Origin: Delphinus delphis
Taxonomy: Eukaryota; Chordata; Mammalia; Artiodactyla; Delphinidae
Reading direction: 5' to 3'
DNA length: 64,000 bases
NCBI RefSeq assembly: GCF_949987515.2
Contig: NC_082696.1
Span: 34,328,431-34,392,430, forward strand
Positions 3,249 through 36,655 of this stretch are shown here, piece after piece (the first letter of the stretch is position 1; each line of letters starts with the position of its first letter). Position numbers and translations under genes: made by a program. The notes beneath the pieces were generated by a model. That model did not search any database, was not told the DNA's origin, and saw nothing but the letters and a program-made list of their open reading frames with translations.

Positions 3249-3258
3249 GGAGCTTCCG

Positions 3259-3275
3259 GGAAGATGGCGGAAGAG
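3259..3275 (+). promoter_or_regulatory. YY1-like motif at the L1 start
   Basis: AAGATGGCGG at 3261-3270 sits about a dozen bases inside the L1 5' end. YY1 sites of this form at the +10 region are known to set the transcription start of mammalian L1 promoters. The motif is seen; activity is inferred. Confidence 0.5.
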
Positions 3276-4973: not shown

Positions 4974-5864
4974 ATGAGAAGACAGAAAAACACACAGATG
5001 AAGGAGCAAGATAAAAACCCACCAGACCTAACAAATGAAGAGGAAATAGGCAGTCTGCCTGAAAAAGAATTCAGAATAATGATAGTAAAGATGATCCAAA
5101 ATCTTGGAAACAGAATAGACAAAATGCAAGAAACATTTAACAAGGACCTAGAAGAACTAAAGATGAAACAAACAATGATGAACAGCACAATAAATGAAAT
5201 TAGAAATACTCTAGATGGGATCAATAGCAGAATAACTGAGGCAGAAGAACAGATAAGTGACCTGGAAGATAAAATAGTGGAGATAACTACTGCAGAGCAG
5301 AATAAAGAAAAAAGAATGAAAAGAACTGAGGACAGTCTCAGAGACCTCTGGGAAAACATTAAATGCACCAACATTCGAATTATAGGGGTTCCAGAAGAAG
5401 AGGAGAAAAAGAAAGGGACTGAGAAAATATTTGAAGAGATTATAGTTGAAAACTTCCCTAATATGGGAACGGAAATAGTTAATCAAGTCCAGGAAGCACA
5501 GAGAGTCCCATACAGGATCAGTCCAAGGAGAAATACGCCAAGATACATATTAATCAAACTGTCAAAAATTAAATACAAAGAAAACATATTAAAAGCAGCA
5601 AGGGAAAAACAACAAATAACACACAAGGGAATCCCCATAAGGACAACAGCTGATCTTTCAGCAGAAACTCTGCAAGCCAGAAGGGAGTGGCAGGACATAT
5701 TTAAAGTGATGAAGGAGAAAAACCTGCAACAAAGATTACTCTACCCAGCAAGGATCTCATGCAGATTTGATGGAGAAATTAAAACCTTTACAGACAAGCA
5801 AAAGCTGAGAGAGTTCAGCACTACCAAACCAGCTCTACAACAACTGCTAAAGGAACTTCTCTAG
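4974..5864 (+). CDS. LINE-1 ORF1p, 296 residues, intact
   Basis: This is the nucleic-acid-binding chaperone of the L1 ribonucleoprotein. The frame is uninterrupted. Residues about 35-105 are a heptad-rich, charged coiled coil for trimerisation (NLGNRIDKMQETF to ISDLEDKIVEI). An RRM-like domain follows (NIRIIGVPEEEE near 130 and RYILIKLS near 187), and then a C-terminal domain with LSAETLQARREW and the conserved LYPARIS segment. The start is the first ATG of the frame, followed by MRRQKNTQMKEQ. ORF2 begins 58 bases after the stop, as in other L1s. Only the partner ORF2 is broken, so this element could supply ORF1p but not retrotranspose itself. Confidence 0.9.
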   Translation: MRRQKNTQMKEQDKNPPDLTNEEEIGSLPEKEFRIMIVKMIQNLGNRIDKMQETFNKDLEELKMKQTMMNSTINEIRNTLDGINSRITEAEEQISDLEDKIVEITTAEQNKEKRMKRTEDSLRDLWENIKCTNIRIIGVPEEEEKKKGTEKIFEEIIVENFPNMGTEIVNQVQEAQRVPYRISPRRNTPRYILIKLSKIKYKENILKAAREKQQITHKGIPIRTTADLSAETLQARREWQDIFKVMKEKNLQQRLLYPARISCRFDGEIKTFTDKQKLREFSTTKPALQQLLKELL

Positions 5865-5922
5865 GCAAGAAACACAAGAGAAGGAAAATACCTACAATAA
5901 CGAACCCAAAACAATTAAGAAA

Positions 5923-7971: not shown

Positions 7972-8368
7972 GAAAAAAATGTCATGAAGAACCTAGGGGA
8001 AGACAGGAATAAAGACACAGACCTACTAGAGAATGGACTTGAGGATATGGGGAGGGGGAAGGGTAAGCTGTGACAAAGCGAGAGAGAGGCATGGACATAT
8101 ATACACTACCAAACGTAAGGTAGATAGCTAGTGGGAAGCAGCCGCATAGCACAGGGAGATCAGCTCGGTGCTTTGTGACCGCCTGGAGGGGTGGGATAGG
8201 GAGGGTGGGAGGGAGGGAGACGCAAGAGGGAAGAGATATTGGAACATATGTATATATATAACTGATTCATTTTGTTGTAAAGCAGAAACTAACACACCAT
8301 TGTAAAGCAATTATACTCCAATAAAGATGTTAAAAAAAATAAAATATATAAATAAATAAAGGGACAGA

Positions 8369-11340: not shown

Positions 11341-11418
11341 CCGATCCCACCCAAAGGGCAGACTGTGGCCATGAATCTGGGGATCATCTATGTATCTCTG
11401 TGGACAGTTGGTGGGCTG
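11341..11418 (+). CDS. LEG1-like copy, exon 2
   Basis: The acceptor is TTTCTCTTTAG and the donor is CTG/GTGAGT, which is strong. The exon reads DPTQRADCGHESGDHLCIS and then VDSWWA. The minus-strand gene starts this exon 9 bases earlier; here the ancestral acceptor position reads TTCTCTTTAG, so the junction has moved inward by three codons without changing phase. An in-frame ATG at 11301 with no stop before the exon gives an alternative, signal-peptide-less start. Confidence 0.8.
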
Positions 11419-11738
11419 GTGAGTTTAAGGTAACAATCAAAACTCAAATTGATGACCTTTCCTCAACGAATCAATTCAATCTAGAATCCCAATTATAGAA
11501 ACAAAAATAGAAATGAGAACTACTGCTTTTACAAAAAAAAAAAAAGGAAAAATCTCTTTGACCCAAATATTGTGAATGTTTTGACATGAGGTTTTAGACA
11601 CTATTTTAAAAATTAGTAGTTAATTTATCCAATTATGAAAATATCAATTAGAGAAAACTAGTAACCTCAAAACTTGCTTTAAATACATGGGACAAAAGTA
11701 GGAATTTGTAATACATTAATAACTTTTTGTTTATACAG

Positions 11739-11923
11739 ACCTTAATTATTATCTCTCTGCAATACCCTTCCTTGCTATGGTTGATTCTGGCATAATGGGA
11801 ATATCATCAGACAATGTCACCTTTCTGCCACCATCCAAGGATCAAATGAATTTTTGTTATAATGTTTCTAGCTGTTATTCATCCTTTCCAGATACAATGA
11901 AAAAATGGAATAAATTTTACCAG
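11739..11923 (+). CDS. LEG1-like copy, exon 3
   Basis: The acceptor is TTTATACAG. The frame is fully open: LNYYLSAIPFLAMVDSGIM, GISSDNVTFLPP, then FCYNVSSCYSSFPDTMKKW. The donor CAG/GTTTTG departs from consensus at positions +3 to +6. G-runs (GGCGGGGG, then AGGG) follow at once, and such runs can assist weak donors. Confidence 0.8.
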
Positions 11924-12813
11924 GTTTTGGCGGGGGTTTTTTTAGGGTTTTAAGTAATACTCTTCGAGAGTAGTCAAGTAAATTTTGAATAATATTTAAT
12001 GTAAGATTTTTTATGCATCGAACAGTATGTTCCTAAGGAATAAAGTTCTAGTATCTAAATCTTTATTAGGATGACAACAATATTCATATGAGTAGATTAC
12101 TGCATGACATCATATCTCATTAGCACCCACATTAATATGAAGACTGCCCTATCCATTCTTTTCACACCAAATAAATTATATTCAAAACCTGTAGAAATTA
12201 TGTCTTCATAGTGCATGTTCATCACATTTTCAGGTCAAGTGAGCAGTAAACTCTATAAATACTACTAGGGAATAGATTGCGGTGAATTTGATCAGCTTAT
12301 TTCAACTCCCTTTATAAACCATCACCTGCGCTGACTAAAATGATAATCTGACAATCAGAATCAAATGTTGATGTCCAAAGTGAAGTGTCACGGGTGAGAG
12401 AGTAAATGACCAAAGATCAGGTTTCCCTTTAGAGAACTTGTTCATTATGCTGCATATGATTAGGTGAAAATACTCTTATACCTCCTCCCATTTCTGACTT
12501 TTAAAACTTTGTGGAAAGTTCATTGCACGGCAAGAGAAAAACAAATAAATGAAATACTACATTATAAAATTCTGAGCATTTCAAAACCATATGGTTTATT
12601 TCTTTCAAATGGATTCAGTAATACTAGTAATTATTATAGCTAATATTAAGCTCTTTGGGGAGAATTAAGCATTAAGTTTTTTATACTTTAACTCTTAAAT
12701 GTTCTCCCCTCATTTAGAATATTGAAAAATTATATTTATAAATAGAATTGATTTTCAGAAAGAGAGATTGTTATAATTGCGTAAATATTAATAACATTTT
12801 CCTTCTTGGATAG

Positions 12814-12914
12814 CAGGTAAAGTCATATTCTAGAAACTTTGATGACCTCTTGAAGTACTTATGGGTTGCACATGTCTCATCCCTGAAGGTTGTTCATGAA
12901 AAATTTCACAGTAG
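12814..12914 (+). CDS. LEG1-like copy, exon 4
   Basis: It reads NFDDLLKYLWVAHVSSLK and then VVHEKFHS, with a strong donor AG/GTAAGA identical to that of the minus-strand gene. Two acceptor AGs three bases apart (ending at 12813 and 12816) both keep the frame. Confidence 0.78.
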
Positions 12915-13179
12915 GTAAGAATGGATCTAAAGTTATTTTTTTAATCTTACACTATCTTTCTATCTTACACTATCTTTTTCGCTGAAATGTTTTTCAATTT
13001 ACCTATATGTCAACCATCGGGAAGTATTATGATAAAGATAAAACTGATAAGAAAAAATTTTACTGGATAAAACTTGAAAGTATTTTATAAGTAGGTATAT
13101 TTCCAGACCAGGTGATACAGATAATACAGATATAACATTATTCATTACAAATTAAAAATGAAAATTTCTTTGTCAATAA

Positions 13180-13915
13180 GAAGAGAAAATGGAACGTAAA
13201 TTGAAAACAGTATGGAGAGTCCTCAAAATATTAAAAATAGAACTACCATATGATCCAGCAATTTCACTGCTGGGTATTTTCTGAAAAAAAAAATGAAAAC
13301 ACTAATTTGAAAAAAATATATGCACCCCTCATGGTCATTGCAGCATTATTTACACTAGCCAAGACATGGAAACAAGTGTCCACCGACAGATGAATGGATA
13401 AAGAAAATGTGGTATATATACACGGTGGGATATTATTCAGCCATAAAGATGAAGGAAATTTTGCCATTTGCAATAACATGGATGGACTTTGAGGGCATTA
13501 CTCTAAGTGAAATAAGTCAGACAGAGAAAGACAAATACTGTGTGACCTCACTTATATGTAGAATCGTTAAAACAAAACAAAACCCCCAAAAAACAAAAAC
13601 CAAGCTCATAGACACAAAGAACAGATTGGTGGTTGCCAGAGGTGGGAGGTAGGTGAAATGCGGGAAAGGGGTCAAAATGTACAAATTCTAGTTATAAAAT
13701 AAATGTCATGAAGACATAATGTACAGCATGGTGACTATAGTTAATGGTATTGTATTGCATATATGAAAGTTTCTAGGAGAGTAGATATTAAAAGTTCTCA
13801 TCACAAGAAAAAATTTGTAACTGTGTAGGGTGACTAATGTTAACTAGACTTGTGGTGATCATCTTGCAATATACACAATATCAAATCATTATGTTGTACA
13901 ACTAAAAAAAAGAGA
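13180..13915 (+). mobile_element. LINE-1 3' fragment in the intron of the LEG1-like copy
   Basis: The sequence GTATGGAGAGTCCTCAAAA marks the end of ORF2, followed by the WYIYTVGYYSAIK frame (13407 on). An L1 3' untranslated region follows, ending in ATGTTGTACAACT and an A-rich tail. It is 5'-truncated and non-coding. Confidence 0.85.
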
Positions 13916-14404
13916 AAAATTGTCTATCTAGTATATATCATTAGGAAAAAATATCAAACTACCTGAAAATCAGGAAAAATTCTCTATAGGTTATTTCATT
14001 TTTCAGTGGTTACCTGAAATGAAAATCATGTGTTCTTAAAGAGATATCCAAATCCAGCAGAAATTGAAATTGCTAATCCTCTTTGATTTATATCTTTACA
14101 TTTTGAAACAATGAGAGTTGGTCACATTCCAGAGTTTATGCAAGTAGAGCATGTTTTATGAAAAAGGCAAAACATTTGACTAAAAGTACATATTTTCTGG
14201 GATGATAATTTCTAGATTTAAATTCTAAGAACATCTCTTCAAAGTTTCAAATCTAGGGGCTAAATCAATACCATGTTTTTACAGTCTGTAATCTAAAAAG
14301 TAGAATAATGTAGTTTTGAAGAAATTAGCTGTTTTGTAAGTTCAGTTGGCAAAGTTCTGAGTAGACTAATTCTAAATGCATACTCCCCCTCACTTGTCTA
14401 TTAG

Positions 14405-14651
14405 GTTACAACATTACTCTAAACAAGAAGCAGAGTTTGAAAGCAGCAGGGCTTTGTTTGTGGATTATTTAGCTCCACCCCTCTTCCCTTCAGCTTTGAT
14501 TAGAACATATGGACTCCAGAAGGGCCTGCCAACACAAATGCTTGTTAGTGGGAATAAAGCCCCCTTCATCAGTGACTTTACAGGCTTTCAGAACACAGTC
14601 CTGCTTGGTGTAAATTTTCTCCACAAAGTGTATAAGTATATAGGGAAGTGA
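14405..14651 (+). CDS. LEG1-like copy, exon 5, running into a stop
   Basis: The acceptor is CTTGTCTATTAG. The frame is open through LQHYSKQEAEFESS, DYLAPPLFPSALIRTYG, LQKGLP and KAPFISDFTGFQNTVLLG, to YIGK and TGA. In the minus-strand gene the equivalent point is ACAG/GTAAAG. Here it is ATAG/GGAAGT, so the GT is gone and translation ends two codons later. The conserved KAPFISDFT block confirms the identity. Confidence 0.8.
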
Positions 14652-14820
14652 CACAAAGACTTTATTTTTTTGTAAATTCTATATGTTGTGTCGATTTCAT
14701 AGGTAATGAAATATCATTAGAATCATAATTATGAATCACTACAACAGATCGTCTAAAGAAAGAAATGTTGACTTCCTGTACGTATCTGTTTCAAAGTTTT
14801 CACAATAACCTTTGTAGGCT

Positions 14821-15189
14821 TTTTTTTTTTTTAATTTATTCTTGGCTGTGTTGGGTCTTCGTTGCTGCTTGCAGGCTTTCTCTAGTTGTGGCGAGAAGGG
14901 GCTACTCTTCGTTGTGGTGCACAGGCTTCTCAGTGCGTTGGCTTCTCTTGTTGTGTAGCACGGGCTCTAGGCGCATGGGCTTCAGTAGTTACAGCACGCA
15001 GGCTCAGTAGTTGCAGCGCACGGGCTGTAGGGCATGCGGACTTCAGTAGTTGTGGCACGTGGGCTCAGTAGTTGTGGTGCACAGACTTAGTTGCTCCATG
15101 GCATGTGGGATCTTCCTGGACCAGGGATCGAACCTGGGTCCCCTGCATTGGCAGGCAGATTCTTAACCACTGAACCACCAGGGAAGTCC
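14821..15189 (-). mobile_element. CHR-1-like SINE, antisense
   Basis: The poly-T start, a body with repeated GTAGTTGTGGC units and the tRNA head ending CAGGGAAGTCC are all visible. It is flanked by CTTTGTAGGCT and CTTTGTGGGCT. Confidence 0.88.
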
Positions 15190-15199
15190 TCTTTGTGGG

Positions 15200-16906
15200 C
15201 TTATGATGGGTTTCATTTAATGGGACATATTATAGGCCCTCCCTTACTTAGCATGTCCTCTCTTCTGGAGTCTTCGCACAAAAACAGCAGATCAGTACCA
15301 CCACATTTTAGTTTGACAAGGAGATAAGAGAAACCTCTATTTAATTCTTGGATAAGTTTTGCTATTTTATTTTATTTTACTTTGTTTTAAAATGAAAAAT
15401 ATAATAATGATACTTGCCATGACTAACAGAACCATGAAATAATTTTATGTGACCTTTCTTCAGCCAGTTCTACAGATTATAGACATAAAGGAAAAAATCT
15501 GATCCCCTAAATTTCTGGTTTTGGAGGAGGTATATTTCTCTAAAATTTCCAAATCCTAGGCTTACTAATAGTGGAAAACAGAAGAAATCACATAATGGTA
15601 AATTTGAAAATTACTGTATCATTCAATTTCCCAGATACTATTTACCATTTACCCTTGTTCTATTGAGGAAAAAAATATATATATTTTTTAATATATTTTT
15701 ATATATATATCTAATTTCTATTCCCTAAAGCCAAATTCAGAAATAAGATATGAGTCAAAATAAAAATGGATGCATTGTAAATTTAAAATTGTGTATGCCT
15801 TACTTAGGGTAACACGATATTTGAATAAATAAACTTTGAATTATAATGGCAAAACTCAATAGGATTCTATTTCTCCCTCGCATAATGATTCAGGATGTTT
15901 ACTCAATTGAAAGGAGGCTTTCTTCCATGGTAATTCAAGGATTTAGGATCCTTCAATCTGTGGCTTCGTCAATCTTTACAGCTTCACCATTGTATGCTCA
16001 GTACAAAAATCAAAAGAATTAGAGAGCTTAAAGAGAGACCCCCTTTTAAAGGCCTAGGACTAGAAGAGATAAGCATAACTTTATCTCACATAACTTTGGC
16101 AAAAATACAGCCCCACTGGATGGAGGATGGGAGGGACTTGGGAAAGTTCATTCTTGTCTGAGCCCCACTGATAGGGGAATCACAAAATCTGTTGAATTGC
16201 CAGTCATCTTTGCCACATTGTCAGATACAGAAAGTAAAATCTAGGCCAAGATGATTTAACAAACTTGAACTTCCCAGTATGTAAAGAATGAGGGATGAGA
16301 TGAATGGTTAGAGTTTATTTCATTTAAAAATTATAAAATTTCTAAATTTTTGTAAGCTCTACTTTTACTAAAATTAGCTTTGGATTTAGTAAGGAGTTTT
16401 GAATTCACTGTAGGCTACAATAAAAAAGAAAAAGATGCAGAAAAGAAACAGTAAATTGGAACATAGTTAAACGAGTTACCTAGCTTCCTCACTTCCTCTG
16501 GTAATTGCATGCTGCCACTGATGCTCAGAATTCAGAAACTGTGCTGAAAACCTTGGCAGATATTTTTAGTTAATTCAAGTATAGACAAAATAATAATAAA
16601 TAGAATATCATTAATCAAAATATTTTTACAGTTGAACATGTCTGGTTCATAGTTAACATATATTAAACTTTTTAACGTAACATTCAACTACATTTTTGAT
16701 ATAAAAAAATTTAAGATTTTTCTTTACACTAACAACTGCACTAAATTTTCTTGTATTTTAGCCTTTATGCCATGATATTTTTGTGACTTCAAGTCTCCAT
16801 TAATTTGGCATTTAAAAAAATTATTTATTTATCTTAACCAAACTTGGGAAAAGTCATGCAAGGGAAAGTATAGTCTACAGATTATACCACTTGCTTGTGT
16901 GGCTGC
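15200..16906. other. AT-rich non-coding sequence downstream of the LEG1-like copy
   Basis: No exon or identifiable young repeat was found. An AT-rich patch lies at 15665-15712. This corresponds to the intron between exon 5 and the exon 6 relic. Confidence 0.45.
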
Positions 16907-16943
16907 CCTGCCTCACTCTTTTTTTTTTTCCTGCCTCACTCTT
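16907..16943. repeat. Short poly-T flanked by a 14-bp direct repeat
   Basis: CCTGCCTCACTCTT is present at 16907-16920 and 16930-16943 with nine T between. This looks like a target-site duplication around a retro-insertion reduced to its A-tail on the minus strand, or a slippage duplication. Confidence 0.6.
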
Positions 16944-17099
16944 AGTGTGGAAAAATATGGGGAAAAGAGTGATTCCTGACTCCTGAGACTTTGATGTGTA
17001 AGTTCTAACCAATCCCAGTCAAGGACCTCCTGTAGAAGAATTAGGGATAGAGCAAGAGTCCAGAGATGTTAATGGAAATAACTGCTCATAAAATAAAGT

Positions 17100-18220
17100 A
17101 ATGGGAAATAAATATGATTTTCCCAACAGAGAACTAGTAGAAGAAAAAAGGGCAGTAGCTCAAGCTCAAGTCTTCTGTATCCTCTTTCTTGTTTATTAAC
17201 TGATCAATCCATTCTGACATATTTGGTCCGCCCAAAATTCACAACCGTTACTACTTTTTTTCTATTTCCTAATAACATTTCATTTTATGACTATTATTTT
17301 CCTTATTTTTAAAATATATTCAACATGTCTGTTATTTAAAATTCAAACACTACAGAAAGTTATTAAATGCAAATAAAACTTACCTTCTCCATCATCATCA
17401 CTTAACCTCCATACCATGATTTCTTGCCTGATATATATACTTACATATATTTAAGTTTTGGGCCCACTTCTACAAAAATAATTATATGAACTAGTGAATA
17501 TAAATAAATGAATAAATTATTTGATAAAAACTCTGTATTTGCATAAAAGAGATTATATGAATGGAACTGTTCTATGCTATATATTTTTAACTAATCATGT
17601 ATATTTTAGATGTACAAATATTAACAGACATCATTCTCTTTAAATAATACATAACTTTCCACTGAATGGATTTATATTCTTTCCAGTTTTAAGCAATGCA
17701 AAGTGACATTTGATGTCTACTTTCATTAATTTAATTTGTTGGAATGGTGACAGATTAAATTGCTGGGAATGAATGTATGATCAGGTATTGCCAAATGGCA
17801 GTGAAAGAGTGTGGTATAGATTATGTTCTTATCAAAATAAAGACACACACACACAAAAAACCCACACAAACTGTTTATTAAGATTCATAATTCTGCATAG
17901 ACACCAAAAATGAGTATTAGCAAACTTTAAAATTTGCAGTAGTCTAATATGCAAAAAATATCACTTCACTTTTTTATGGGTCTTATTCTTTTAATCACTG
18001 CTGTATCCACTATTCTCTTCAGTTACTTATGTATCTTATACATTTGAATATGAAGGCATAACATAATTTTAAAGAGCAAAACATGTTTTATTTTAAAATG
18101 TATATGAAAACATGCTAATTTTATACTAATTGAAATTAATTTTGTTAAATTGAATTTTGTTTTAAATAATTTCATCTTTTGGATTCAAAGTTAAAATTTT
18201 ACCTACAACTTTTAAATGTC
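17100..18220. other. AT-rich sequence, possible old L1 relic
   Basis: There are no coding features. The 17500-17800 part resembles the reversed end of ancient L1 elements in wording (TGCTGGGAATGAATG, CCACTGAATGGATT) but is too decayed to assign. Confidence 0.3.
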
Positions 18221-18234
18221 TTTAAATTTTCTAG

Positions 18235-18360
18235 GAAAACTGTCTCTCGTTATATGGGAAAATTTAATGAAGTTACAAGAAAACTGTTTCTAGAGATTTT
18301 GGAATTCATTCTTCATTGTTTTAACTAAATACTCCTGGAAATGTATAGTAAAATAAAAAT
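18235..18360 (+). pseudogene. Relic of LEG1 exon 6 for the plus-strand copy
   Basis: After a TTTTCTAG acceptor the sequence reads KLSLVIWENLMKLQENCF and a stop, in the phase that the intact gene uses. The minus-strand gene reads SLSLTIWKILMKTQ at this place. The nucleotide match continues past the stop. An AATAAA at 18352-18357 follows. Because the exon 5 donor is lost, this exon is probably no longer spliced in. Confidence 0.6.
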
Positions 18361-18790
18361 CCACAATGATAAATTTTCAAGGAACAGTGTTCTCCAATAA
18401 TAACTAAAATGTTAACTGTCCAGTATAGATTCAGTTGAATAACTGGCAAATGCTGGTAAGTTAATAAAGGTAATAAAACGCTGATTGGACTTTTGGGATA
18501 TTATTCTACTTAAATTAATTTCATGAAATTTAGAGGAACAGATTTTCATGGACAGTAGTCAAGAGGCAGAATATTTTAAATGAAAATCTGAATGGTGAAT
18601 TTGAATTTCTAAAATGCTTAAAAATGAACTATTGGTTTAGAATGTATTACCTGATTTAGCAATGTTCTCTCTGAAAAAATTTAAAAATTATGTTCAGAAA
18701 TTTTTAGTTCATATTTTATGGGATACTTCATTTTTATGGGATACTTCAGGGTCACAGAGGGCAACGTTTCTCTCCTTTAAGAAGAGATAG

Positions 18791-19008
18791 AGCTTCCCTG
18801 GTGGTGCAGTGGTTGAGAGTCCGCCTGCCAATGCAGGGGACACAGGTTCGTGCCCCGGTCCGGGAAGATCCTACATGCTGCGGAGCGGCTAGGCCCGTGA
18901 GCTATGGCCGCTGGGCCTGCGTGTCCGGAGCCTGTGCTCCGCAACGGGAGAGGCCACAACAGTGAGAGGCCCACGTACCGCAAAAAAAAAAAAAAAAAAA
19001 AAAAAAAG
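18791..19008 (+). mobile_element. CHR-2 SINE
   Basis: It runs from AGCTTCCCTGGTGG to GTACCGC and a long A-tail, with box B-like GGTTCGTGCCCC. It lies between the two LEG1 copies. Confidence 0.9.
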
Positions 19009-19014
19009 AATGAG

Positions 19015-19215
19015 GAAGAAGGTGGTCTTTTTCCCCTCCCCGCTTTTCTTTTGATTATAGAAGTGTAGCCCACTAAGTTCTCAGGGCACAGCACCCTTTT
19101 GCTAGCCTGCCTGAAAGCCTCAGAAGTGTCCTATTCTAATAAATCACTTCTTATTTATCACTTTGCCTCTCACCGAATTCTTTCTTCGCTGAGCCATAAA
19201 GAACTGGAGCTCCTT
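19015..19215 (+). repeat. ERV LTR remnant (R-U5 end), plus orientation
   Basis: AATAAATCACTTCT at 19138 is followed by TTTGCCTCTCACCGAATTC and a GAGCTC-type end. This wording is typical of the R-U5 part of class I ERV LTRs in ungulates and whales. It sits about 0.7 kb beyond the stop codon of the minus-strand LEG1 gene. Confidence 0.45.
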
Positions 19216-19631
19216 GGAGCCCCCTGAAACTGACCTACTTTGTTCCTTTACTCTGTCCCTATCACTGGGAAAACCTTTATATGAAAGCTTCATGGGGCTC
19301 TACAAGTCACCACCTCCTAGCCAGTGGATACTGTCCTACGAGAGCAACCTTGAGAAATTTGATCCTTAAGCATTCATTATCAATTGTGGACCAAAGGAGG
19401 GGAAACTTACCTAATTGCTGTACACTTGTCAGTGAAAACACACACAAAAAAACCCTAACAAACTAATTATATATTCTATTTGCCAGGTCAGTTTTATGAG
19501 TTTTAAAACTTTAATTGAATGTCAGTACTTCATTTTAAAATGTTCTGGACTTTGGTTATAAATCAGCAAGACATTGCTCTAAATTTCATGAAATCGGGTT
19601 ACATAGGATAACAACAGAAGAGCCATACAAG

Positions 19632-19648
19632 TTTATTGTCTGTTTATT
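19632..19648 (-). terminator. Polyadenylation signals for LEG1
   Basis: On the minus strand two AATAAA hexamers (19643-19648 and 19632-19637) lie about 255-270 bases after the LEG1 stop. They would give a short 3' untranslated region. Confidence 0.5.
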
Positions 19649-19902
19649 AATTTCTTAGTGATTTGTGATAGCTTAATACAATTTTCTTTAGATCCTAAAC
19701 ATTTTAAGCGTTAATGAATTCAAAAATCAAGAATTATTAATTGAGCAAAATAATCATTGCATTAAGTTGAATTTAAAGTTAGGAATGCATGGACAAAATC
19801 CTAACAAATGAGCATAAGTCAAAAACACCAAAAACAAGAAAACTGTATGATTATGATTGTGTTAAATTTTGAAATTACTGTTGTTCAATTTGTTAGAATT
19901 GT

Positions 19903-20036
19903 TCATTTTAATTCATTAATCATTTCCAGAAACGTTGGATTAAAGTTTGCAAGGATTGCTTCAGAAATCTCTTGAGCTAGCTTCTTTGCAATCTGTGTCT
20001 TCATTAAAATTTTCCATATAGTCAAAGATAGTGAAT
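19903..20036 (-). CDS. LEG1: LEG1 exon 6 (C-terminal)
   Basis: The acceptor TTTTTCCCAG lies 7.7 kb downstream of exon 5. With the phase-1 base from exon 5 it reads D, SLSLTIWKILMKTQ, then an amphipathic helix-like stretch EISEAILANFNP, ending ELK and TGA. Support is the correct phase, the strong acceptor, the polyadenylation signals just beyond and a homologous relic downstream of the plus-strand copy. Retaining intron 5 instead would add 17 residues and stop at 27732. Confidence 0.7.
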
Positions 20037-26000: not shown

Positions 26001-29000
26001 TCAAAACCACATATTAAATCCAAAGCTAAATTTAAATAAAATTGAATCTTGTAATAAAATATTGTAGTATGGGCCTTCCAAGCTTTCAAGGACTTTCAAC
26101 TCTTGACTCATTTCTTTACCCTTTACATGTTAACAGGTAAGAGCCAGCTTATACCATCCAGGCCTAGAATGCAATTATACTATGTAATAATTTGGCAAAG
26201 ATGGCTAGGCAACTCCTAAAATTCATGCATCTCCTTTCATGGTGTAGATTTGTCACACAGCAGTGGTTCCTGGGCAACAATTTAATTCCTTAGCCCCCTT
26301 TGTGTCCAGATATGGGACAATGTGACTATTTCATAGCAATAGAGTATGAGATGTAGTGAGAGAAATATCCAGGCTTTCTCCAACACTATAGTGTCTTTCT
26401 GCTGGTGAAATGTGAATAATGTAGAGGCCAGGGGCTGGAAGAACCACAGATGTAAGGATGTTCAGTCTGCTACTCATTGTGTGAAGGAAAGCTGCCACGG
26501 ACTGAGAACACTGCCCTGGAACCATTACTGGAGCAAGAAAAGACTTCAGTTGTATGAAGCCCCTAAGACATTTGGGTTTTTTACTCTACTTAATGCAAAT
26601 AAGAGTTCAAAAACTTATAGTTTAATGTTTTCTTTGCTTTTATGTCTTTTAAATCTTTCAGATTCACTTTGTTGTTTTTAAAATACTAATATTTTAATTA
26701 TGTTTTAAGTTTGGTTCACTGCATAAGAGCATGTCTGGAAAATTAGGATGATGTAGTGAGTCAAACTTGCAATTAAAGATTTCTTCCAGTTTTCACTCTG
26801 CTAGGAAACCCTACAATTGAGGGGCTGAAGCAGAATACTTCTGCCATGACTAGTAAGGCTGGATGGAGGGAACTCACATAAGTCAGTTTGCTAGTTTTCT
26901 CATTAATCATGGCAGGTTTTCTTTTTTTTTTTTTTTCTAAATCTGAGAGTGATATTAAGGATTTTCTTTAAAAAAAAAGTACTATAACAACAACAACAAA
27001 AAAGAATATATCTGTGTTTGTAGATGAATAAAGTACACGAAGTAGTCTGGTAGCTTCATGGGTAAATAAGGACCTGTATGGTCAGGCCCCATAAGATGGC
27101 TGCTCTCTTGCTGTCTGTATATGCCTTACTCCACCCGGCACTGCCTTACCCTTAATTTATGTGCATGATTGCCTCCCCCTCCTAAGCTGAAACTTTAATC
27201 AGTAGCTACCTTCGTGATCAGCTCAACCCTCAGCTAATGATTGTTCTAGTCCTCGGACCAAACGGCTCCAGTATGTTGGGTACTCAACAGGAAACAGTGG
27301 CCCATGCGAGTTTCTAACCCAAAGAGCTGAGGGGAGGCATATTCCAACAATCCCCCTGGAAACCAAGGAGCCCTTCTGATGTCACGTCCCTTATAACTGA
27401 TAGCCTCCTCCTCCCCTGTGTAGCGAAGGTTGTTACTGTGTCCTGCCGGCTATTGGCTGTACCACCGTGGGGTGTCGCTCCAGGCCCTTTGCCTCTGACT
27501 TTGTAAGATTTCCTGTCTGGTAAATGGCTGAAGTCTCTGTAGCTGACATGGCTGGGCTGTTGCAAGGATTGCAGGACTGTGGGGTGCAGTCTAACAGGAC
27601 CCATAAGAAGGGACAAGCCATGAATGCAAGGACCAAAATGTGTGTAATGGATACCCTTAAGAAACCATGACTTTCTTTCAGAGTATGTGCTTTAACAACA
27701 TATATCTCTGATAATCATCATTTCTTCCTTTATCTATTCAACACAATATTGATTTTCTTTAAGGTATTGTTTATAAGGCCTTTACCTGTAGCGTTATCCA
27801 CTTGGTGAAGAAGATTTAGACCAAGCAGGACTGTGTTCTGAAAGTCAGTAAAGTCACTGATGAAGGGGGCTTTATCCCCATCAACAAGCACTCGTGGTGG
27901 CAGGCCCTTCTGGAACCCAGATACTTGAATAAAGGTTGTAGGAAAGCTGGCTGCAGCTAAATAGTCCAAAGCCACACACCAATCTCTTCCAAAATCTGCT
28001 TCTGGTTTAGAATAATATTCTAACCTAAAAGACAAGTGGAAACATGTACAATTATAATTACTCCACTCAGAATTTCAGCCTCGTCATTTTCTAGGAAAGA
28101 TCACCTTCTGCCAACAAACTAAGAATCTAGTTTTTAGTTTTAGAATGTGATGGCTTGAGTGCCTGCCTTTGAAGATATAACTAATTAAAATTTTAAATTT
28201 GGAAAGGACCATCCCATCAGTTGTTTATATTTTATTTTGAGTTTTTTATCTCTATTAACCAGATACCTTATACCTTGGGAATCATATAACCAGGTGTTAG
28301 ACTATGACTAAGTAGTAGAAATGTGCAGATAAAAATCAAAGTTTCCAAGGTAAAATCTCTGCTAGACTCAGACAGCCTTCGTAAAACTGTTGATTTCCTA
28401 GCGTCAGGAGACCCCTAAAACACTGAGCACCCTAGAGAGACAGATGTCTGATTTTCTGGTCTGATTTTCTGAATACATGGGTTTTTTTCTAGTGGAGGAA
28501 ATCTTCCGGGAAACCAAACTCTCACCTATTTGGGGAACAAGTTATTACAGTGGAAAGGTTAGGGTGTAGTAATTAGTTTTATAACTATATAATTCATGGC
28601 TCCTGTCCCCACCCACTGCTGAACAACTTGCAGGTTTTGAACGAAGTTGTTCCCCCTGAAACACTGTCTACTCCCTGCTTTGCTCACCAGCTACATTCTC
28701 TTTTAAGTCTCATCATAGGTGTCGCCTCCTTCACAAAGTTCGCCATCCCACCTGAGGTGGAATCAACTATTTCCTACTCCACTATATTCCCAAAGCACTA
28801 TACTACTCATATATTTAAAAGTTTGTTTTCTCTTTAGATTATATTCAATTTTCTAGTAATTAGGTTATATCCTAATTTTTCTGTTTCCAAAGTACATATG
28901 TAGGGTCTATTAAACAGAAAACATTTGCATCATGTTTGTCAATGTTAAGCAAATCATGACATAGCCCAGAGAAGAAACCTTGCTGTGTTTCATTCACATG

Positions 29001-32000
29001 CACACAGGCTCCTCCCTGCCTCTAACACCCAGAAGTGGAAGACTGCATACAGTGGACTCCTAATGAGAGAAGAGTTTGGTTTGGATTCACAGTTGACTAT
29101 TTTTAGTCACATCACAGCTGATTATGAAGTAAGGATTAAAGGAAATGTGAATTCATACGGATTTTGACCAATAGCCACATGTCCCTAGTAACAATGGGTT
29201 AAACAAATTGCAGGGGAGTCAGCAACACTAGGAAAGGGGGAAAGGGATGTGGGCACCAGATCAAGACACAGAGGCCATAGGAGCACAAGTGAAATTCAAT
29301 GGAAGCCTTTCACATTATTCTATTGAATGTGCTATTGAACAATTGAACCAATAAGTCAGTTAAAATATGTCCAAGCAAAAAGAAAAATACACCTTAAAAG
29401 GCTCATTTTAATTTAAAATATATTTTAAAACATAAAATATATACATGTACCAGCCAATCTGCGGATCCAGGACCACAGTTTTATTTAAGTATATGTAGAC
29501 TACGCAGGGTTCAGTATTGTCTCATGTAAAGAAACAACTAGTATTTATTTTTACCTAAAGAAAGTAACTCATGAGGTTTTAAGGAAGTTCCCAGGCTGTA
29601 CAGATTGTAAACATGGCCTCAATTCTTCAATACTCTCTATGTCCCTGTTTTTTGGCTTGTCATTTTCCAGTGCCCCTTCCCCAGATACACACTACCATGT
29701 ATAAAATAGATAAATAAGGATTTACCGTATAGCACAGGGGACTATATTCAATATCTTGTAATAAACTGTAATGGAAAAGAATAAAAACTAATATAGATAC
29801 ATATGTATGTATATGTAAATATACATGTATATAAATATATATATATTTATGTACATATACATGTATATAAATATATATATTTATATACATATATTATAAA
29901 ACCAAATTACCTTGCTGTATACCTAAAACTAACACAATATTGTCAATCAACTATACTTCAATTAAAAATTAAATATTAGCCTACTTGACACAGCATAAGC
30001 TTAAAATGCATTTTCACACTTGGTTTCTCTCTCTTGCTATTCTGTCATCACAGTGAAGAACACCCAGGCTTGCCTGATGGAGAACGAGAGACAAGTGGAG
30101 GAGAGCTGAGCTTTCCCACTCGCCCCTGTGGGGCCGGTAAAAATCAGCCAACATGACATGAGCCCAGGAAAGATCCGCAGAGCTGCCCGGCTAAACCTCA
30201 GGCACGTGAGCAATCAACACTTATGTCATAGGACGCTGAGGGTTAATGGCTGTTGATTGTGCCTCACATTCGTGTGAGAAAAACTGGATGCAATACAGGG
30301 CCTCACATCTAATTAACTGCAGAGTCAGGACTGAAACCCTAGCAACTTGGCTTTAAAGTTCATGTTCTTTACAACTGCCCTCTACTGCCTCTTGTGATGA
30401 TGATAGTTAAACATGATGCATAGATAGATTTAATCCCCCAAATTACCCTATGTAGTATGTACTGTTATTATTACAAGTTCAAAATTGAGAAAACTGAGTT
30501 TATCGCTGTTTGGATTGCCCAATTTAATGCCTAGTTGTTGAAACCAATAGGCAAAGAAGGACATATGCTGTGAATCTGCTAATCGGGTGATTTATTTACC
30601 TTACTGGATGATGGAGTTCATGAGACAGACAACAACCAGTGGAATATGAGGTACCCAACATTCTTGCGTGGATTTGCAAATTTGCTTGTATAATGCCAAT
30701 GAGCCCTGATTTTGGTTGTTGTTGTTCCTGTTTTATACTATACCCAGATTTCTAGCCCATACTTCACTCTTGGGGATTGACTCCACCCCCTAAGTAGTGT
30801 CTGTAATCATTGATTTTATGCACCAACTTGACTGGGCCACAGGGTGCCCAGATATTTGGTCAAACATTATTTTGGGTATTTCTGTGAGGGGAGTTTTGGA
30901 AGATATTACCATATAAATCTGTAGACGGAGTAAAGCAACTTGCCCTCTATAATGTGGATAAGCTTCCTCCAATCAGTTGAAAGCCTGACTAGAACAAAAA
31001 TTAATCTTTCAGTGAGTAAGAGAGAATTCTCTTGGCTGATGGCCTTCAGACTGAGACATAGGCTCTTCCTGGTTCTATAGCAGCTGCAGCCTTTTTACTT
31101 GAACTGCACGTTGGCTTTGCAAATTATAGATTTGCCACCCTCCATAGTCATAGGAGCCAGTTCCTTACAAAAAATCTATATCTATCTATCATCTATCTAT
31201 AAATCTATCATCTCCTATTGGGTCTGTCTCTGTGGAAAACACTAACTAATACAGTGCTATTCACATCTTAACACAAATCATTCTTACGCTCTCAAATCTA
31301 GGTGTATAATACTTCTAAGTGTACCTGTGGAGTGGCTTGATAATCTTCTAGGCTATTTAGTATGCAAACCCTGATGCTACTGAATTTTCTTCCCCAAGTA
31401 TGTAGCTACCATATTATGTGCCTATGATTAAAAAAAACAGTGATAATTTCTTTTCTTTTTTTTTTAATAGAGAGAAATTTGTTGTATGTTTTTTTGGTTG
31501 GTTGGTTGGTTAGCTGGTGGTTGGTTGGTTGGTTGGTACAAGATTTTTTTTCTCAAATTTTTGCCCCTTCTTCATAAAACAATTTTTAAGTCTGATCATA
31601 CTAAAATAATCACACATCATCATTAAAATCCCCAATGATTAAATATAACATTTAATAGGAAGATTTATATTAGAAAACGAATAAAAAGGCATAAATAAGA
31701 CGAAAAATTATTTGCCGTATTAAGTAGAAATAACTTGGGATCCATTCTTACCTATCTTCAAAAATTTTGTAAGCATCTTTCAAGGATGAGAGATGTGCAT
31801 CCCACAAGTACTTCAACAAGTCATCAAAGCTACTAGAAGGTGACTGCAAACGCTATAGTAAAGAGAAGAAATTTATTCATATTTGAGCAACTATAACAAT
31901 TCTCTACAATTTAATTTTGTTCACATTTACAATTTAGCAATATTCTACATGACAGGAAAATTTTGTTTCTATGGATTAATTTGTGTAAGCCATTAGTGAC

Positions 32001-35000
32001 TAACATTCTGTAAAGACTATAATAATTATCTATTGTTAGTAGTAATATTGAGTGCATCTATAAGAGATGAACTGCATGTGTTTTCCCAAAAGTCAGCATT
32101 TTATACTGACCTAGAGAACTTTACTTTTTGATTAGCAGTTGTTTTTCTGCTACCATAGTTGAAATTACCACAAAAGTTTAACATTAAGAAAAGGGGGAAG
32201 TTACCAGAATATTTAATTTAATCACATCTTTAAAAATGAACTAATAATCTATAGAACTAGTAAATCTATCTTTTAGCATTGATTTTGGTTCATGAGTGTG
32301 CTTAACCAATGTATTTTATTTTGGTCACTGAATATTTGGTTTTGATTGCCACGTAATTGTTTAGATATACCTATTTGTGAGCGCTTATCAAATCACTTGA
32401 AATAAGTTAATTGACTATTCTAAAACCAACTCCATAATCATATTTCTCCCAAGTGTTATTGCTCAGTTGACTTGAAGGTTCAATTTACCAGGATAATCCT
32501 TTCATTCAGTGAGATATCCTATGTGCTCTCACATTTATGTATGGCTTATTTAGTGTGAGAAAGTGGATAGATTTTCTGTTAATGCTGCATTGGTTCAGAG
32601 GGTGTAAATGACATGTAATGCCCTGCTGTAATGTAATGACGTTAATATAGCTGGCATAAAATTTTACATTTTTATAGCATATAATGCACACAAAAACCTA
32701 AACAGAAAGCATTATACAAAAAAAAAAGAAAAGAAATTACCTTACCACCTTCTAAGAGAATAAATTATAAAACTTAATAAAGGCACCTTGTAAAGGGCAT
32801 TCCACTTCTTCATCGTCTTAGGAAAGGATGACTGACAACTAGAAATATTAAGACAAAACTTTGTCTGGTCCTTGGGTGGTGGCAAAAGCAGGACTTGATC
32901 TGATGATATCCCCATTATGCCAGAATCAACCGCAGCAAGGAAGGGTAGTGCACATAGAAAGTAATTTATATCTGTAATTGCAAAGTACTTGTTATTACCA
33001 CAAGCACTAATAAATGTGATAGAGGATATTTTAAAGTAATCTGTAAACCATTAAGCAAAAACTCACAGATCCAGGAACATGAAAAAAAGTCACTGCAAAA
33101 TATTGAAAATCTCCCTAAGGATCCTATACATAACTTTAACATGTTTCTGTTAATAACCCTACAGTTAGAAATGAATATGGGTTAAAATAGTTGACTACAA
33201 TATTTTAAAACAAAAAGTAATTTTCATGAATTTGGTACCATTCATTTTTCAAAGCATTATGTAAAAATGAAAGAAAGATATCTACTTGTGCAAAGAATGA
33301 TACAACACCTCTAGCTGGGGTTTTACCATGAAATGTGATTTTTTTCTAAATTATCTTAATATGGTTATAGTATTGATATTTTGTATTTTATTTAACCAAG
33401 TTTAATGTGCAGCCATGACATCACAAAGTCTTTGTCTTACATTAGGTCTTTAAAGCAAAAATGTTGGGTAAGTGTTGGCAATAGATCTTTGGATAATTAA
33501 ATTAACACTGAATTAAGATTTTTTAAATTTCTCTCTAAATGGAACCTATTCCAGCAAATTTAGACATCATGATATAGTTGACTGTAAAGCTTGTTGTACT
33601 GATTCCCACTGGTGATGCAGAACATTTTTCATCATAGACATGTATTTTGAATGCAGTTCTACGCCCCAGGGTAGCAGGCTTATACTCCAAACTATGGAGT
33701 CCATGTGAGACAAAAGAAGCCTGAATTCTAGATCTCTAGTCATGACTATTTGTGAGTCTTTGAAAAGACTCCATTGGTATCCTATGAGAAAAATAGGTAA
33801 AGGTGTATATGATGTGTGTCACTGCAAGAAAGTGAAATTTAATGTGACCTTGTTTCTAATTATTGGGAAATATCTCTAAGAAAGTGAGTGTAAATTAATT
33901 TCACTACTAAAATACAAAATAAAGCTAAAGAATTAGAAACTACCTTCTAATTATTTTAGTATTAAATATCCGACAGAGGCCTTAGATTACTGATTGATAG
34001 AACAATTTGTGGTAGATTAATCTCTGACATTTTTATGAGTTTCAAAGTTAAACACATTTTATCTGAGCAAAATGAGAAGAAAGCATTATTTTCTTGTCCT
34101 CTCCTTTCTCATCCTTCCTTGTCCTTGGAGACCCTCTGGCTAGTGGGACCTCCCATCTAACTGCCAATGCTGGCCGTTCAAAGGCCATCGTCCTTTGCTG
34201 TTCCTCAATTCAGTCCCCATGTGAAATATGTCCTAAGGAATCATTATTAAAATTGTGGCCATAAATCCTAGAATGTGACATAAAGGCCACAAGGTACATG
34301 ATGAAGTAAATTCCTTTTTACAGAGGAATAGTGCTGTTTTTGTTTTGTCTCTGTCCCTCAGATTTTAGGTTGAATATTTTCTTTGCGGGAAGGTTATTAC
34401 CTATTTTTCTATTAAATGAACATACCAGCCCACCAGCTGTCCACAGAGATGCACAAACGATCTCCATATTCATAGCCACAGTCTGTCCTTCGGCTGGGAT
34501 CAACTAATCTTCCTAGAAGAGAGAGGATGCACGGATTATTTATTATGCACATTTTGAAGCTGGTAATAATTGTTTCTTACCTAGGCGCAGTTTGTTTGCA
34601 AAGATGCACAAACATTTCTCTTTTGATGACTTGTGTTTATCTTCCTATCACTCTTTACCCTTCATTTCCCATCTCAGAACCAATTTCTATTCCTTGATCT
34701 AACATCACCACAGTATTCCACTTTTGGATTATCTGTTTTGAATATTATTTGCTTTTGTAATTATTCTCCTTTTCCTAACGTAATCCTTCTCAAAGCAATG
34801 ATTGATAAAGAACTTGTTAATGCTGTTAACCTGCATGAATATTACAAGTGTGAGTTTTCCTAATTGATTATTCCTCAGACTGCACACGCACGTGAGCGTG
34901 CACACACACCTGCACTCCGTCACGTATACCTATGCCATGCTATTTCCAGGCTCTGTTCTGTAGCTTAATTTTCCATATTATTAAATCAGAATAGAATTTC

Positions 35001-36655
35001 TGGTGGTGGACCTAGGCATTGATATTTTTAAAAACTAGGTATTTGTTTTCAACGTGCAGCTACACGCGAGAACCTCTGCTTTTGTTCATTCTTTTATTCC
35101 CTAGTAGATTTTGTTTCTTTTTCCACAGTGAAATTCTGTCCACATTTCAAATCTCAGTTCAAATGCATTTTTTTCTTCTGATTACTCCAGCTGACTCCAC
35201 TGTGTCCCTTGTTTTGCACTTTAATTTTTAACAAAGAGTTGTTGTTTATTGTTCTCTGTTTAATTTCTAATACCTTTCCTGTTTCAATTGTGTTGTAAGG
35301 TCTTTGACGGCAGGGAAACTGTCTGCAATACTTACTTACCTGCACCCCACAGCTGCTTTTAGAAAATGCTGGAGACATATAAGCCCATCATTGGATGAGT
35401 TTAGTCAGGCTTGATCATAATATGTGAATGTAATGAAAGAATAAGAAAAGCATTCAGCCTCCATCTACCGCTGGCCCCCAAGGCCCCAGAGTCTGGCATG
35501 CCTCCCATGGTGGACTACGTGCTAATAATTTCTCCTGGATCTCTATCTTTTGGACTCTGAGGAAAGCCAGATAAATAGGAGTTGGTTTGAGTCTCAAGAC
35601 ATCACCTGACAAAGGTGCATGAATTGCCAGCTTCGGTAGCTCCTGTATGTGACTCCTCCTCAGATCTTAGATAAACCTTAATCTTCTCTCTACATTTTTT
35701 CCATCAGAACAGAACAAATTTCCTTATTGGTGGTGTTATCAGTATGGATTGAAGGAAGCACCCACTCTGTTTCATGAGCTTTTCCGTCAGCCAAAATATC
35801 TTATCATTTGTGAGTCTTTGGCCCAAACATATCTTCTAACTAAACACTAGAATGTATTTTATTTTTGAAAGGAATCAATCTTTTGCAGAGAAACATACTC
35901 ATGAACAAGGTGCCACTCCTGTTCTCTCCATCTCCATATATAGGTTATCATAGTTAGAACTTTACGAAATTCAAACTAATTTGACATCACCTTCTGCTTT
36001 TAGTCCATATCTCCTTGACTGTTTTGTTCATCCCAGTGCTTAGAATAGAGTCTGGCACCTAGTAGGACTTCAATAAATATTTGTAGAATGGCCAATAGGT
36101 TGGATATGAAGTCTTTTTGTGTTTGGCAACTACGCCATATGCCCCATTGCAGTTTCTAGTCAAATCAGGCAACACAGAAAGATTGTTGGAGGAGAAGGAG
36201 AAGCAGTAGAAAAATAATGGTTATGAGGGGAAAAGAGGAAAAAGAAAAGAATCAATTTTCAAAGACATGCTTTGGTGTATACAGAGTTCCACTTCCCAAT
36301 TACAACATGGTTAGATTGGAAGATCATTAGAATAAAAACAAGGGTCATTCTTACCTGTAGTATATTGCCAGCCATGCTGTAAAGGCAATCCCCATAAAAA
36401 ATTTTGTTCATTATCTGGTGCAAATTTTTCAAAATAACTGGCTGTTTTGTTCATGAGGATTTTATACATCCCCATTCTCTTAGAGTATACCCAGGGATCA
36501 ATAACATACTTTCCATTCTCCACCCTGTAGTCACTGAACTGACCAGGACTCTCATTCCACAGGGGGGGATACAGATCTGAGAGACTGAAAGCTCCTGCTA
36601 AAGAAACAGAAATGCAACCAACTAGTGCACAGGCCCAAGGAGGAAGGAAAGCCAT
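19903..36655 (-). CDS. LEG1: Protein LEG1 homolog, six exons, 348 residues
   Basis: LEG1 (human C6orf58) is a secreted glycoprotein of the DUF781/Leg1 family, linked to liver growth in zebrafish and related to the monotreme lactation protein. Coding exons on the minus strand: 36355-36655, 34426-34512, 32787-32971, 31752-31852, 27786-28024 and 19903-20036. They join to 1047 bases with no stop, and every intron is GT-AG in matching phase. The protein has an N-terminal hydrophobic signal (residues 1 to about 21) and the family landmarks PPLWNESPGQFSDYRVEN, DPWVYSKRMGMYK, FAPDNEQN, CISVDSWWA, PFLAAVDSGIMGISSDQV, FDDLLKYLW and KAPFISDFTDFQN. Sequons are at N34, N69, N171 and N302; cysteines C112, C121, C169 and C175 are shared with the second copy. 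The start is the ATG at 36653, with G at -3 and +4; the human protein starts at the same place. The last exon differs from the human C-terminus as I remember it, so it is the least certain part. Confidence 0.93.
20100..21670. other. LEG1 intron 5, AT-rich, no exon seen
   Basis: This is non-coding AT-rich DNA between exon 6 and the retro-insertion. No open frame in it has splice sites matching LEG1. Confidence 0.45.
21672..21890 (+). mobile_element. 189-bp retro-insertion of unknown source in LEG1 intron 5
   Basis: The perfect 15-bp direct repeat AGAAAATTAGTAGTG (21672-21686 and 21876-21890) encloses a segment. The segment starts GGAGTTGTGCACTGTGC, contains AATAAAGAGG and AATAATAAAGAG near its end and finishes in an A-rich tail. 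Flanking duplication plus A-rich tail is the signature of L1-driven insertion. I do not recognise the body as a known SINE. A 5'-truncated processed transcript is possible. Confidence 0.7.
22150..25070 (-). mobile_element. Old LINE-1 5' half, antisense, in LEG1 intron 5
   Basis: On the minus strand, 25070-24100 is L1 5' untranslated sequence. About 23950-23660 is an ORF1 coiled-coil relic (ELKNSIEGLSHRLLKW). 22652-22323 is the beginning of ORF2 with the endonuclease opening (LSVITLTVNGLNSP, KIDFKTNIVRRDK). Stops and indels are frequent and the element ends abruptly, so it is ancient. A SINE interrupts it at 23531-23651. Confidence 0.75.
23531..23651 (-). mobile_element. Short tRNA-Glu-derived SINE, antisense
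   Basis: The reverse complement reads GAATTCCCTGGTGGTCCAGT, then GGTTAGGACTC, then GGATTCGACGCCTGG, and ends AACTAAGATCCCAGTGTGACC and an A-tail. This is the short cetartiodactyl tRNA-Glu SINE type, distinct from CHR-1/CHR-2 bodies. Confidence 0.75.
26230..26590 (+). repeat. MaLR/MLT1-like LTR relic in LEG1 intron 5
   Basis: The 3' end, GGAGCAAGAAAAGACTTCAG, then AAGCCCCTAAGACATTTGGG, follows the usual ending of MLT1-type LTRs (GAGTGAGAAATAAAC then AAGCCACTGAGATTTGGGG). It is weakly conserved. Confidence 0.4.
27060..27640 (+). repeat. Possible ERV LTR in LEG1 intron 5
   Basis: This is a GC-richer block with a CTTATAACTG TATA-like element at about 27389 followed by CT-rich sequence. It looks like an LTR in composition, but ends, family and polyadenylation signal are not identifiable. 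It ends about 150 bases from LEG1 exon 5. Confidence 0.3.
27786..28024 (-). CDS. LEG1: LEG1 exon 5
   Basis: The acceptor is TTGTCTTTTAG and the donor is ACAG/GTAAAG. It encodes residues 225-305 (LEYYSKPEADFGRDW, DYLAAASFPTTFIQVSG, FQKGLPPRVLVDG, KAPFISDFTDFQNTVLLG), the most strongly conserved C-terminal block of the family. The sequon NAT at N302 survives splicing. Confidence 0.9.
28620..28860 (+). repeat. L2-like relic
   Basis: The phrases CATCCCACCTGAGGTGGAATC and CACTATACTACTCATATAT resemble the 3' part of mammalian L2 elements. It lies in LEG1 intron 4 and is strongly decayed. Confidence 0.35.
29690..29968 (+). mobile_element. LINE-1 3' end with AT-rich repeat core
   Basis: It starts with TATAGCACAGGGGACTATAT and ends with AACACAATATTGTCAATCAAC and CTTCAATTAAAAATTAAAT, the standard L1 3' untranslated ending. 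Between these lies an expanded AT-rich palindromic stretch (29785-29895). Confidence 0.8.
29785..29895. repeat. AT-rich dyad minisatellite
   Basis: Two copies of a unit built from ATACATGTATATAAATATA and ATTTATRTACATAT alternate. Each half is nearly its own reverse complement, so the DNA can extrude as a cruciform. It lies in LEG1 intron 4. Confidence 0.7.
30795..31255 (+). repeat. ERVL-type (MLT2-like) solo LTR
   Basis: It contains CACCAACTTGACTGGGCCA, CAGATATTTGGTCAAACATT, CCAATCAGTTGAA and a final ACACTAACTAATACAG, the wording of a common mammalian ERVL LTR. A TCTA tetranucleotide stretch lies at 31178-31210. It is in LEG1 intron 4. Confidence 0.6.
31487..31536. repeat. (GGTT)n-rich simple repeat
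   Basis: About ten GGTT units with two interruptions (GCTGG). It lies about 220 bases before LEG1 exon 4 in genome order, i.e. in intron 4 downstream of that exon. Confidence 0.85.
31752..31852 (-). CDS. LEG1: LEG1 exon 4
   Basis: The acceptor is TTTACTATAG and the donor is GATAG/GTAAGA. It encodes residues 192-224: RLQSPSSSFDD, LLKYLWDAHLSSLK, DAYKIFED. It starts in phase 0 and ends in phase 2, as in the second copy. Confidence 0.9.
32787..32971 (-). CDS. LEG1: LEG1 exon 3
   Basis: The acceptor is TGTAATTACAG... read as TTACAG/AT, and the donor is AAG/GTGCCT. It encodes residues 130-191, including PFLAAVDSGIMGISSDQV, LLPPPKDQTKF and NISSCQSSFPKTMKKW. It holds a sequon (N171) and two conserved cysteines. 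Confidence 0.9.
34426..34512 (-). CDS. LEG1: LEG1 exon 2
   Basis: The acceptor is CTCTCTTCTAG and the donor is GCTG/GTATGT. It encodes GRLVDPSRRTDCGYEYG and then DRLCISVDSWWA. A second AG nine bases in would skip GRL; the upstream one has the pyrimidine tract and agrees with the GRLADP order in the human protein as I recall it. Confidence 0.9.
35140..35395 (+). repeat. L2 relic in LEG1 intron 1
   Basis: TGTTGTAAGGTCTTTGACGG, then CAGGGAAACTGTCTGCAATA, match the 3' wording of L2 (AAGCTCCTTGAGGGCAGGGA). It is non-coding. Confidence 0.5.
35990..36095 (+). repeat. L2/MIR-type 3' end relic
   Basis: CTGGCACCTAGTAGGACTTC then AATAAATATTTGTAGAATG is the common ending of mammalian L2-family repeats. 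Confidence 0.6.
36355..36655 (-). CDS. LEG1: LEG1 exon 1 (signal peptide and N-terminal domain)
   Basis: It begins at ATG 36653-36655 and ends at the donor ACAG/GTAAGA. It encodes residues 1-100. A hydrophobic N-terminus (FLPPWACALVGCISV) is followed by AGA, a likely signal-peptidase site, and then YPPLWNESPGQFSDYRVEN, DPWVYSKRMGMYKILMN and WGLPLQHGWQY. Sequons are NES and NKT. Reading through the donor ends 14 codons later, so the 115-codon open frame at this place is not the real product. Confidence 0.93.

Follow-up and report, generated by a model that had tools for sequence, protein, structure and literature searches.

A 64 kb stretch of the Delphinus delphis genome (the window; contig NC_082696.1, here C14, positions 34328431-34392430) contains two gene copies of the LEG1 family, which lie on opposite strands with their 3' ends facing each other. 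Feature positions are counted from the window start unless prefixed with C14. The minus-strand gene is LEG1a, the orthologue of human C6orf58, as named by Dang et al. (2020, PMC7060313), a paper which, like the other articles cited, is used here in excerpt. The plus-strand copy is LEG1b, and a third LEG1 relic lies outside the window. Taken together, the locus very probably holds the ancient eutherian LEG1a/LEG1b pair, in which LEG1b is a unitary pseudogene or close to one. Published work already describes the pair, how old it is and that Cetacea possess it (Dang et al., 2020, PMC7060313).

Structure of LEG1a and LEG1b

The six exons of LEG1a have AG/GT borders and splice to a stop-free protein of 348 residues, as a previous sequence-only reading of the window had proposed. 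The product is 100% identical over 348 residues to the annotated 'protein LEG1 homolog [Delphinus delphis]' (P0001). The Pfam Leg1 model (PF05612) matches it with 263 bits (cut-off 25), the domain covers nearly the full length and the N terminus looks hydrophobic by eye. Like other LEG1a genes (C6orf58 orthologues, pig pLeg1a), the dolphin gene has six exons and a near-full-length Leg1 domain. Apart from the length of the product, 348 aa versus 339 aa printed for pig pLeg1a (PMC7060313), there is no notable difference. By analogy with other eutherians, dolphin LEG1a probably codes for a secreted Leg1-domain protein of saliva or mucosal secretion.

The plus-strand copy has four open exons, numbered 2-5 after LEG1a, of 78, 185, 101 and 239 bases. 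These lengths equal those of LEG1a, except for exon 2, whose start lacks 9 of the 87 bases of its LEG1a counterpart. Identity to LEG1a is 74, 68, 54 and 59% for the respective exons (tblastn), and PF05612 matches exons 2-5 with 159 bits (cut-off 25). All four acceptors are AG and three of the four donors are GT. Noncoding homology to LEG1a can be traced as well: the alignment takes in intron 3 and portions of intron 5, together with sequence flanking exons 2 and 5 and sequence past the stop. The sequence-only reading had recognised a diverged plus-strand copy with these four exons, and this part stands, but it had overlooked a relic of exon 6 at 18235-18328. The TAA of this relic coincides with the end of the horse (P0126) and rhino (P0049) LEG1b proteins.

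A genome-wide search with PF05612 (E<=0.001) gave five matches: exons 1, 3 and 5 of LEG1a and exons 3 and 5 of the plus-strand copy. Since all five fall on exons of the two copies, a chance resemblance is excluded. The strands bear out the earlier statement that the copies point at each other. The accompanying estimate, 3' ends less than 2 kb apart, does not hold: as first drawn, the distance is 5,252 bases (14651 to 19903), and it shrinks to about 1.6 kb only if the exon 6 relic of LEG1b is included.

To the left of LEG1b exon 2, positions 3250-8360 form a long stretch that by eye looks L1-like and is interrupted at 7326-7540 by a short inserted repeat of some 210 bases.

Origin and age of the pair

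The phylogeny was inferred by maximum likelihood from 69 proteins, and a second tree was built from 37 rows. In the 69-row tree the plus-strand copy falls within a LEG1b clade of 24 rows (support 98/97) which includes Microcebus LEG1b, and its closest non-cetacean relatives are the pig LEG1b rows (99/98). The 37-row tree again places it in LEG1b (15 rows, 98/97). The LEG1b clade comprises sequences of elephant, armadillo, lemur, rabbit, rodents, bats, carnivores, horse, rhino and pig. Dolphin LEG1a is found in a Laurasiatherian LEG1a group of 22 rows (100/94), together with whale, cow, pig and camel-family sequences. Since elephant and armadillo are inside LEG1b, the duplication predates the placental radiation. 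The LEG1a/LEG1b split was estimated at 100 million years ago, and Cetacea were reported to possess Leg1a and Leg1b and to have lost Leg1c (Dang et al., 2020, PMC7060313).

Of the two origins offered by the sequence-only reading, the old mammalian paralogue retained in the dolphin is thus the one that survives, the paralogue being LEG1b. Under the other origin, LEG1a would have been duplicated recently and in inverted orientation within the whale/dolphin lineage, and one copy would then have decayed; in its favour, the copies are tail-to-tail neighbours with colinear noncoding homology. We consider it extremely unlikely and rejected it, as the tree joins the plus-strand copy to LEG1b of non-cetacean mammals such as pig, horse, rhino, bats, lemurs, elephant and armadillo rather than to the dolphin minus-strand gene. 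Dolphin LEG1a and LEG1b agree at 126 of 200 codons, whereas dolphin and pig LEG1b agree at 161 of 199 residues. Two features of the 69-row tree sit less comfortably with a clean ancient pair. Eutherian LEG1a is not monophyletic, with primate, rodent and rabbit LEG1a forming a grade, and marsupials join the manatee and elephant LEG1a-type rows on the LEG1b side, with low support (86/55).

State of LEG1b in the dolphin and other cetaceans

In its clade, exon lengths and phases and the end of exon 6, the dolphin copy resembles LEG1b of Microcebus, pig, horse and carnivores. A working LEG1b would have six exons, with a signal peptide in exon 1; the dolphin copy, unlike intact LEG1b genes, has no detectable exon 1, has lost its exon 5 donor (GG) and carries exon 6 out of frame. 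It reads as a pseudogene, as human LEG1b does in Dang et al. (2020, PMC7060313). The report of a human LEG1b pseudogene in that paper also qualifies the earlier statement that LEG1 is single-copy in human, which is right for working genes.

Exon 1 was sought in three ways. A tblastn search with the exon 1 parts of ten LEG1 proteins, and with LEG1a, found nothing significant in the window and the 30 kb to its left beyond LEG1a's own exon 1. In a blastn search of the same sequence with the LEG1a exon 1 region, only LEG1a's own exon was significant; the better matches fall in a stretch ahead of exon 1 that resembles a repeat. A profile derived from the 69-row alignment and run over 289 kb around LEG1b gave no exon 1 match above 0.9 bits among the best 50, apart from that of LEG1a. 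In the same search the third relic was detected through its exon 5 (11.3 bits), exon 3 (7.7 bits) and exon 4 (4.7 bits), while the reversed control did not exceed 3.7 bits. As the profile still detects this much older relic, the younger exon 1 of LEG1b should have shown, though the search is blunt for short pieces: the LEG1b exon 6 relic scores -0.9. A lone match to the Leg1 profile at C14:34429495-34429704 on the minus strand (3.9 bits against the control top of 3.7) is probably due to chance.

The absence of exon 1 appears to extend to other toothed whales. Five cetacean LEG1b representatives (Tursiops, Pseudorca, Lipotes and two from Monodon) have protein models without exon 1. The Tursiops, Pseudorca and Lipotes models open with MSLV(D/N)PALDPFSL, which is the sequence just before exon 2 in the dolphin window, and both Monodon models begin with other residues. 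The toothed-whale database models examined look like gene-prediction patches over a leaderless copy. As these models lack exon 1, the most fitting reading of LEG1b is a pseudogene whose loss predates the divergence of baiji, narwhal and dolphins.

Protein change also appears faster in LEG1b than in LEG1a. Nine of 202 residues differ between dolphin and Monodon LEG1b, versus one of 202 in the same columns between dolphin and Delphinapterus LEG1a (Fisher p 0.02). We take Delphinapterus to belong to the same family as Monodon (Monodontidae). Over all aligned columns, dolphin and Delphinapterus LEG1a differ at 33 of 343, and 30 of these fall in the final exon, for which the beluga model has a different end. 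Among 43 positions conserved in at least 95% of 61 reference rows, LEG1b alters four and LEG1a none. All reference rows but one (60 of 61) alter three or fewer of these positions, and three rows alter exactly three.

Several observations weigh against a full loss of function. The remaining reference row alters six of the 43 conserved positions. Dolphin and grey whale, which are separated by a deeper split, show 7 LEG1a differences over 122 of the 202 columns compared above. The ratio of nonsynonymous to synonymous substitution rates (dN/dS) between LEG1a and LEG1b over exons 2-5 is 0.65 (NG86) or 0.83 (YN00), a value that mixes functional and later history. Exon 1 loss in the other species was judged from five representatives of clusters with 18 member sequences; these are protein models and not DNA. 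In D. delphis exons 2-5 are free of stops and frameshifts, and for four odontocete species the databases list LEG1b models as coding for protein. The frame used by the 216-residue Tursiops and Pseudorca models also opens here, with an ATG at 11301, so that a truncated cytosolic product is possible.

An alternative is that LEG1b is still used and that exons 2-5, read from a new start codon at 11301, yield a short leaderless protein. Through these exons the frame is open in this sequence and also in the models of four further odontocetes, and most splice sites are kept. C6orf58 was also listed among 12 sperm proteins exclusive to the dolphin in a four-species comparison which included the bottlenose dolphin, the paralogue being unstated in the excerpt (PMC8323341). 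Nevertheless, we find this use improbable. The protein would lack a signal peptide in a secreted family, together with about 100 residues of the domain; the exon 5 donor and exon 6 are broken; the protein changes faster than LEG1a, and four of the 43 conserved positions are altered. Intact pig LEG1b itself was silent by reverse transcription PCR in the tissues tested: Leg1a alone was detected, in the salivary gland, while Leg1b and Leg1c gave no signal (PMC7060313).

Loss of LEG1b function is therefore the reading we keep as probable, and the word "decaying" used for this copy by the sequence-only reading is probably right. The losses, as judged for the other species from gene models, may have come in the following order and at the following times. 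LEG1b would first have lost its promoter-side exon 1, with the signal peptide and approximately the first 100 residues, before the baiji/monodontid/dolphin split. Exons 2-5 would then have drifted with no stop acquired. In D. delphis the exon 5 donor would have been lost in addition, and exon 6 put out of frame.

Cetacea are listed in print with both Leg1a and Leg1b; probably only LEG1a works in them, as in human and mouse. This adds one more LEG1b/LEG1c loss in placental mammals and has little wider consequence. Among the titles listed from searches of an open-access library, none dealt with a LEG1b pseudogene in cetaceans or with the third LEG1 relic, and neither LEG1 nor C6orf58 occurs in the main text of the cetacean Gene Loss DB paper (PMC12462620).

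The third relic, gene order and related sequences

The third LEG1 copy, which the sequence-only reading did not include, lies 22-25 kb to the left of the window, toward THEMIS. Its matches to exons 2, 3, 4 and 5 run from C14:34306394 down to 34303349; the exon 2 match taken alone scores 1.0 bit, below the control. In the LEG1b frame it has four in-frame stops, as well as gaps and one insertion. DNA alignments carry the homology past the exons: around exon 4 the relic matches LEG1b over 270 bases (70%), and a match to LEG1a intron 5 covers 525 bases (60%), unless the latter is a shared repeat. The relic is much older than LEG1b and far more decayed. In the 37-row protein tree its branch is 1.15 long and its position is unstable. 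Of 1,058 noncoding sites, 203 unite LEG1a with LEG1b against the relic, 166 LEG1a with the relic and 153 LEG1b with the relic. These counts weakly suggest that the relic may have split off slightly before LEG1a and LEG1b parted (p 0.06 and 0.009), with alignment error inflating the count.

In the gene order given by Dang et al. (2020, PMC7060313) the relic occupies the place of Leg1c. LEG1c is compared with the monotreme lactation protein (MLP), and neither copy in the window groups with platypus or echidna MLP. A search for eutherian LEG1c with a platypus MLP fragment (E<=1e-5) gave two proteins, both monotreme.

No first exon is detectable in either the relic or LEG1b, which stand head to head. 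A single rearrangement or deletion in the repeat-rich interval of about 33 kb between them could have removed both promoters, a leaderless LEG1b of exons 2-5 being kept for a time in toothed whales. We regard this scenario as unlikely.

Three CABIT exons, which are taken as THEMIS, are located at C14 34165-34203 kb, left of the window. LEG1b lies between them and LEG1a, which is on its right. A putative first exon of a SOGA3-like gene is located 7 kb right of the window. From THEMIS toward SOGA3 the third relic is on the minus strand, LEG1b on the plus strand and LEG1a on the minus strand. One result speaks against the name SOGA3: the SOGA Pfam model has four matches, on contigs C13 and C15 and none on C14, so the name is tentative. 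The coordinates are collected in Table 1.

The dolphin neighbours agree with the order SOGA3-Leg1a-Leg1b-Leg1c-Themis as excerpted from Dang et al. (2020, PMC7060313). This agreement bears on whether the inverted order might be an assembly or scaffolding error, which we consider very unlikely. The order was read from one assembly, and a local inversion error can occur even in sequence free of N. However, the CABIT and SOGA3-like exons sit where that paper puts these genes, and on this contig of 88.8 Mb there is not a single N between the third relic and the window's right-hand end (the 64 kb window and 30 kb to its left). With no N between the copies, the inverted order crosses no marked scaffold gap, which bears on the doubt about scaffolding raised by the sequence-only reading.

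Table 1. Exons, relics and neighbouring reading frames at the dolphin LEG1 locus
Feature	Position	Strand	Remarks
LEG1a exon 1	36355..36655	-	ATG at 36655; putative signal peptide region by eye; matches P0001 100%
LEG1a exon 2	34426..34512	-	87 bases; tblastn and splicing
LEG1a exon 3	32787..32971	-	splicing
LEG1a exon 4	31752..31852	-	splicing
LEG1a exon 5	27786..28024	-	splicing
LEG1a exon 6 with stop	19903..20036	-	splicing
LEG1b exon 2	11341..11418	+	open; shortened 5' end; usable-looking acceptor TTTAG
LEG1b exon 3	11739..11923	+	open; donor GTTTTG
LEG1b exon 4	12814..12914	+	open
LEG1b exon 5	14405..14643	+	open to 14643; donor GG for GT; read-through reaches TGA at 14649-14651
LEG1b exon 6 relic	18235..18328	+	tblastn and translation; frame shifts within exon; TAA end
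Third LEG1 relic	C14:34302233-34306394	-	ordered matches to exons 2-5; stops and an insertion; faces LEG1b head to head
Long open reading frame, SOGA3-exon-1-like (tentative name)	C14:34399589-34400788	+	no Pfam family
Long open reading frame, KIAA0408-like (tentative name)	C14:34470571-34471956	+	no Pfam family

A Grampus 'LEG1' match was rejected, as it is galectin-1. Two 'Leg1-related protein, partial [Salmonella enterica]' records (P0093 and P0094) show 60 and 58% identity to dolphin LEG1a; they lie on contigs of 1,004 and 1,229 bases and are probably mammalian contamination. Short metagenome proteins (P0144-P0146, P0148 and P0150) match LEG1b, four of them with 67-77% identity over about 40% of the query and P0150 with 85% over 13%; this set is probably host DNA.

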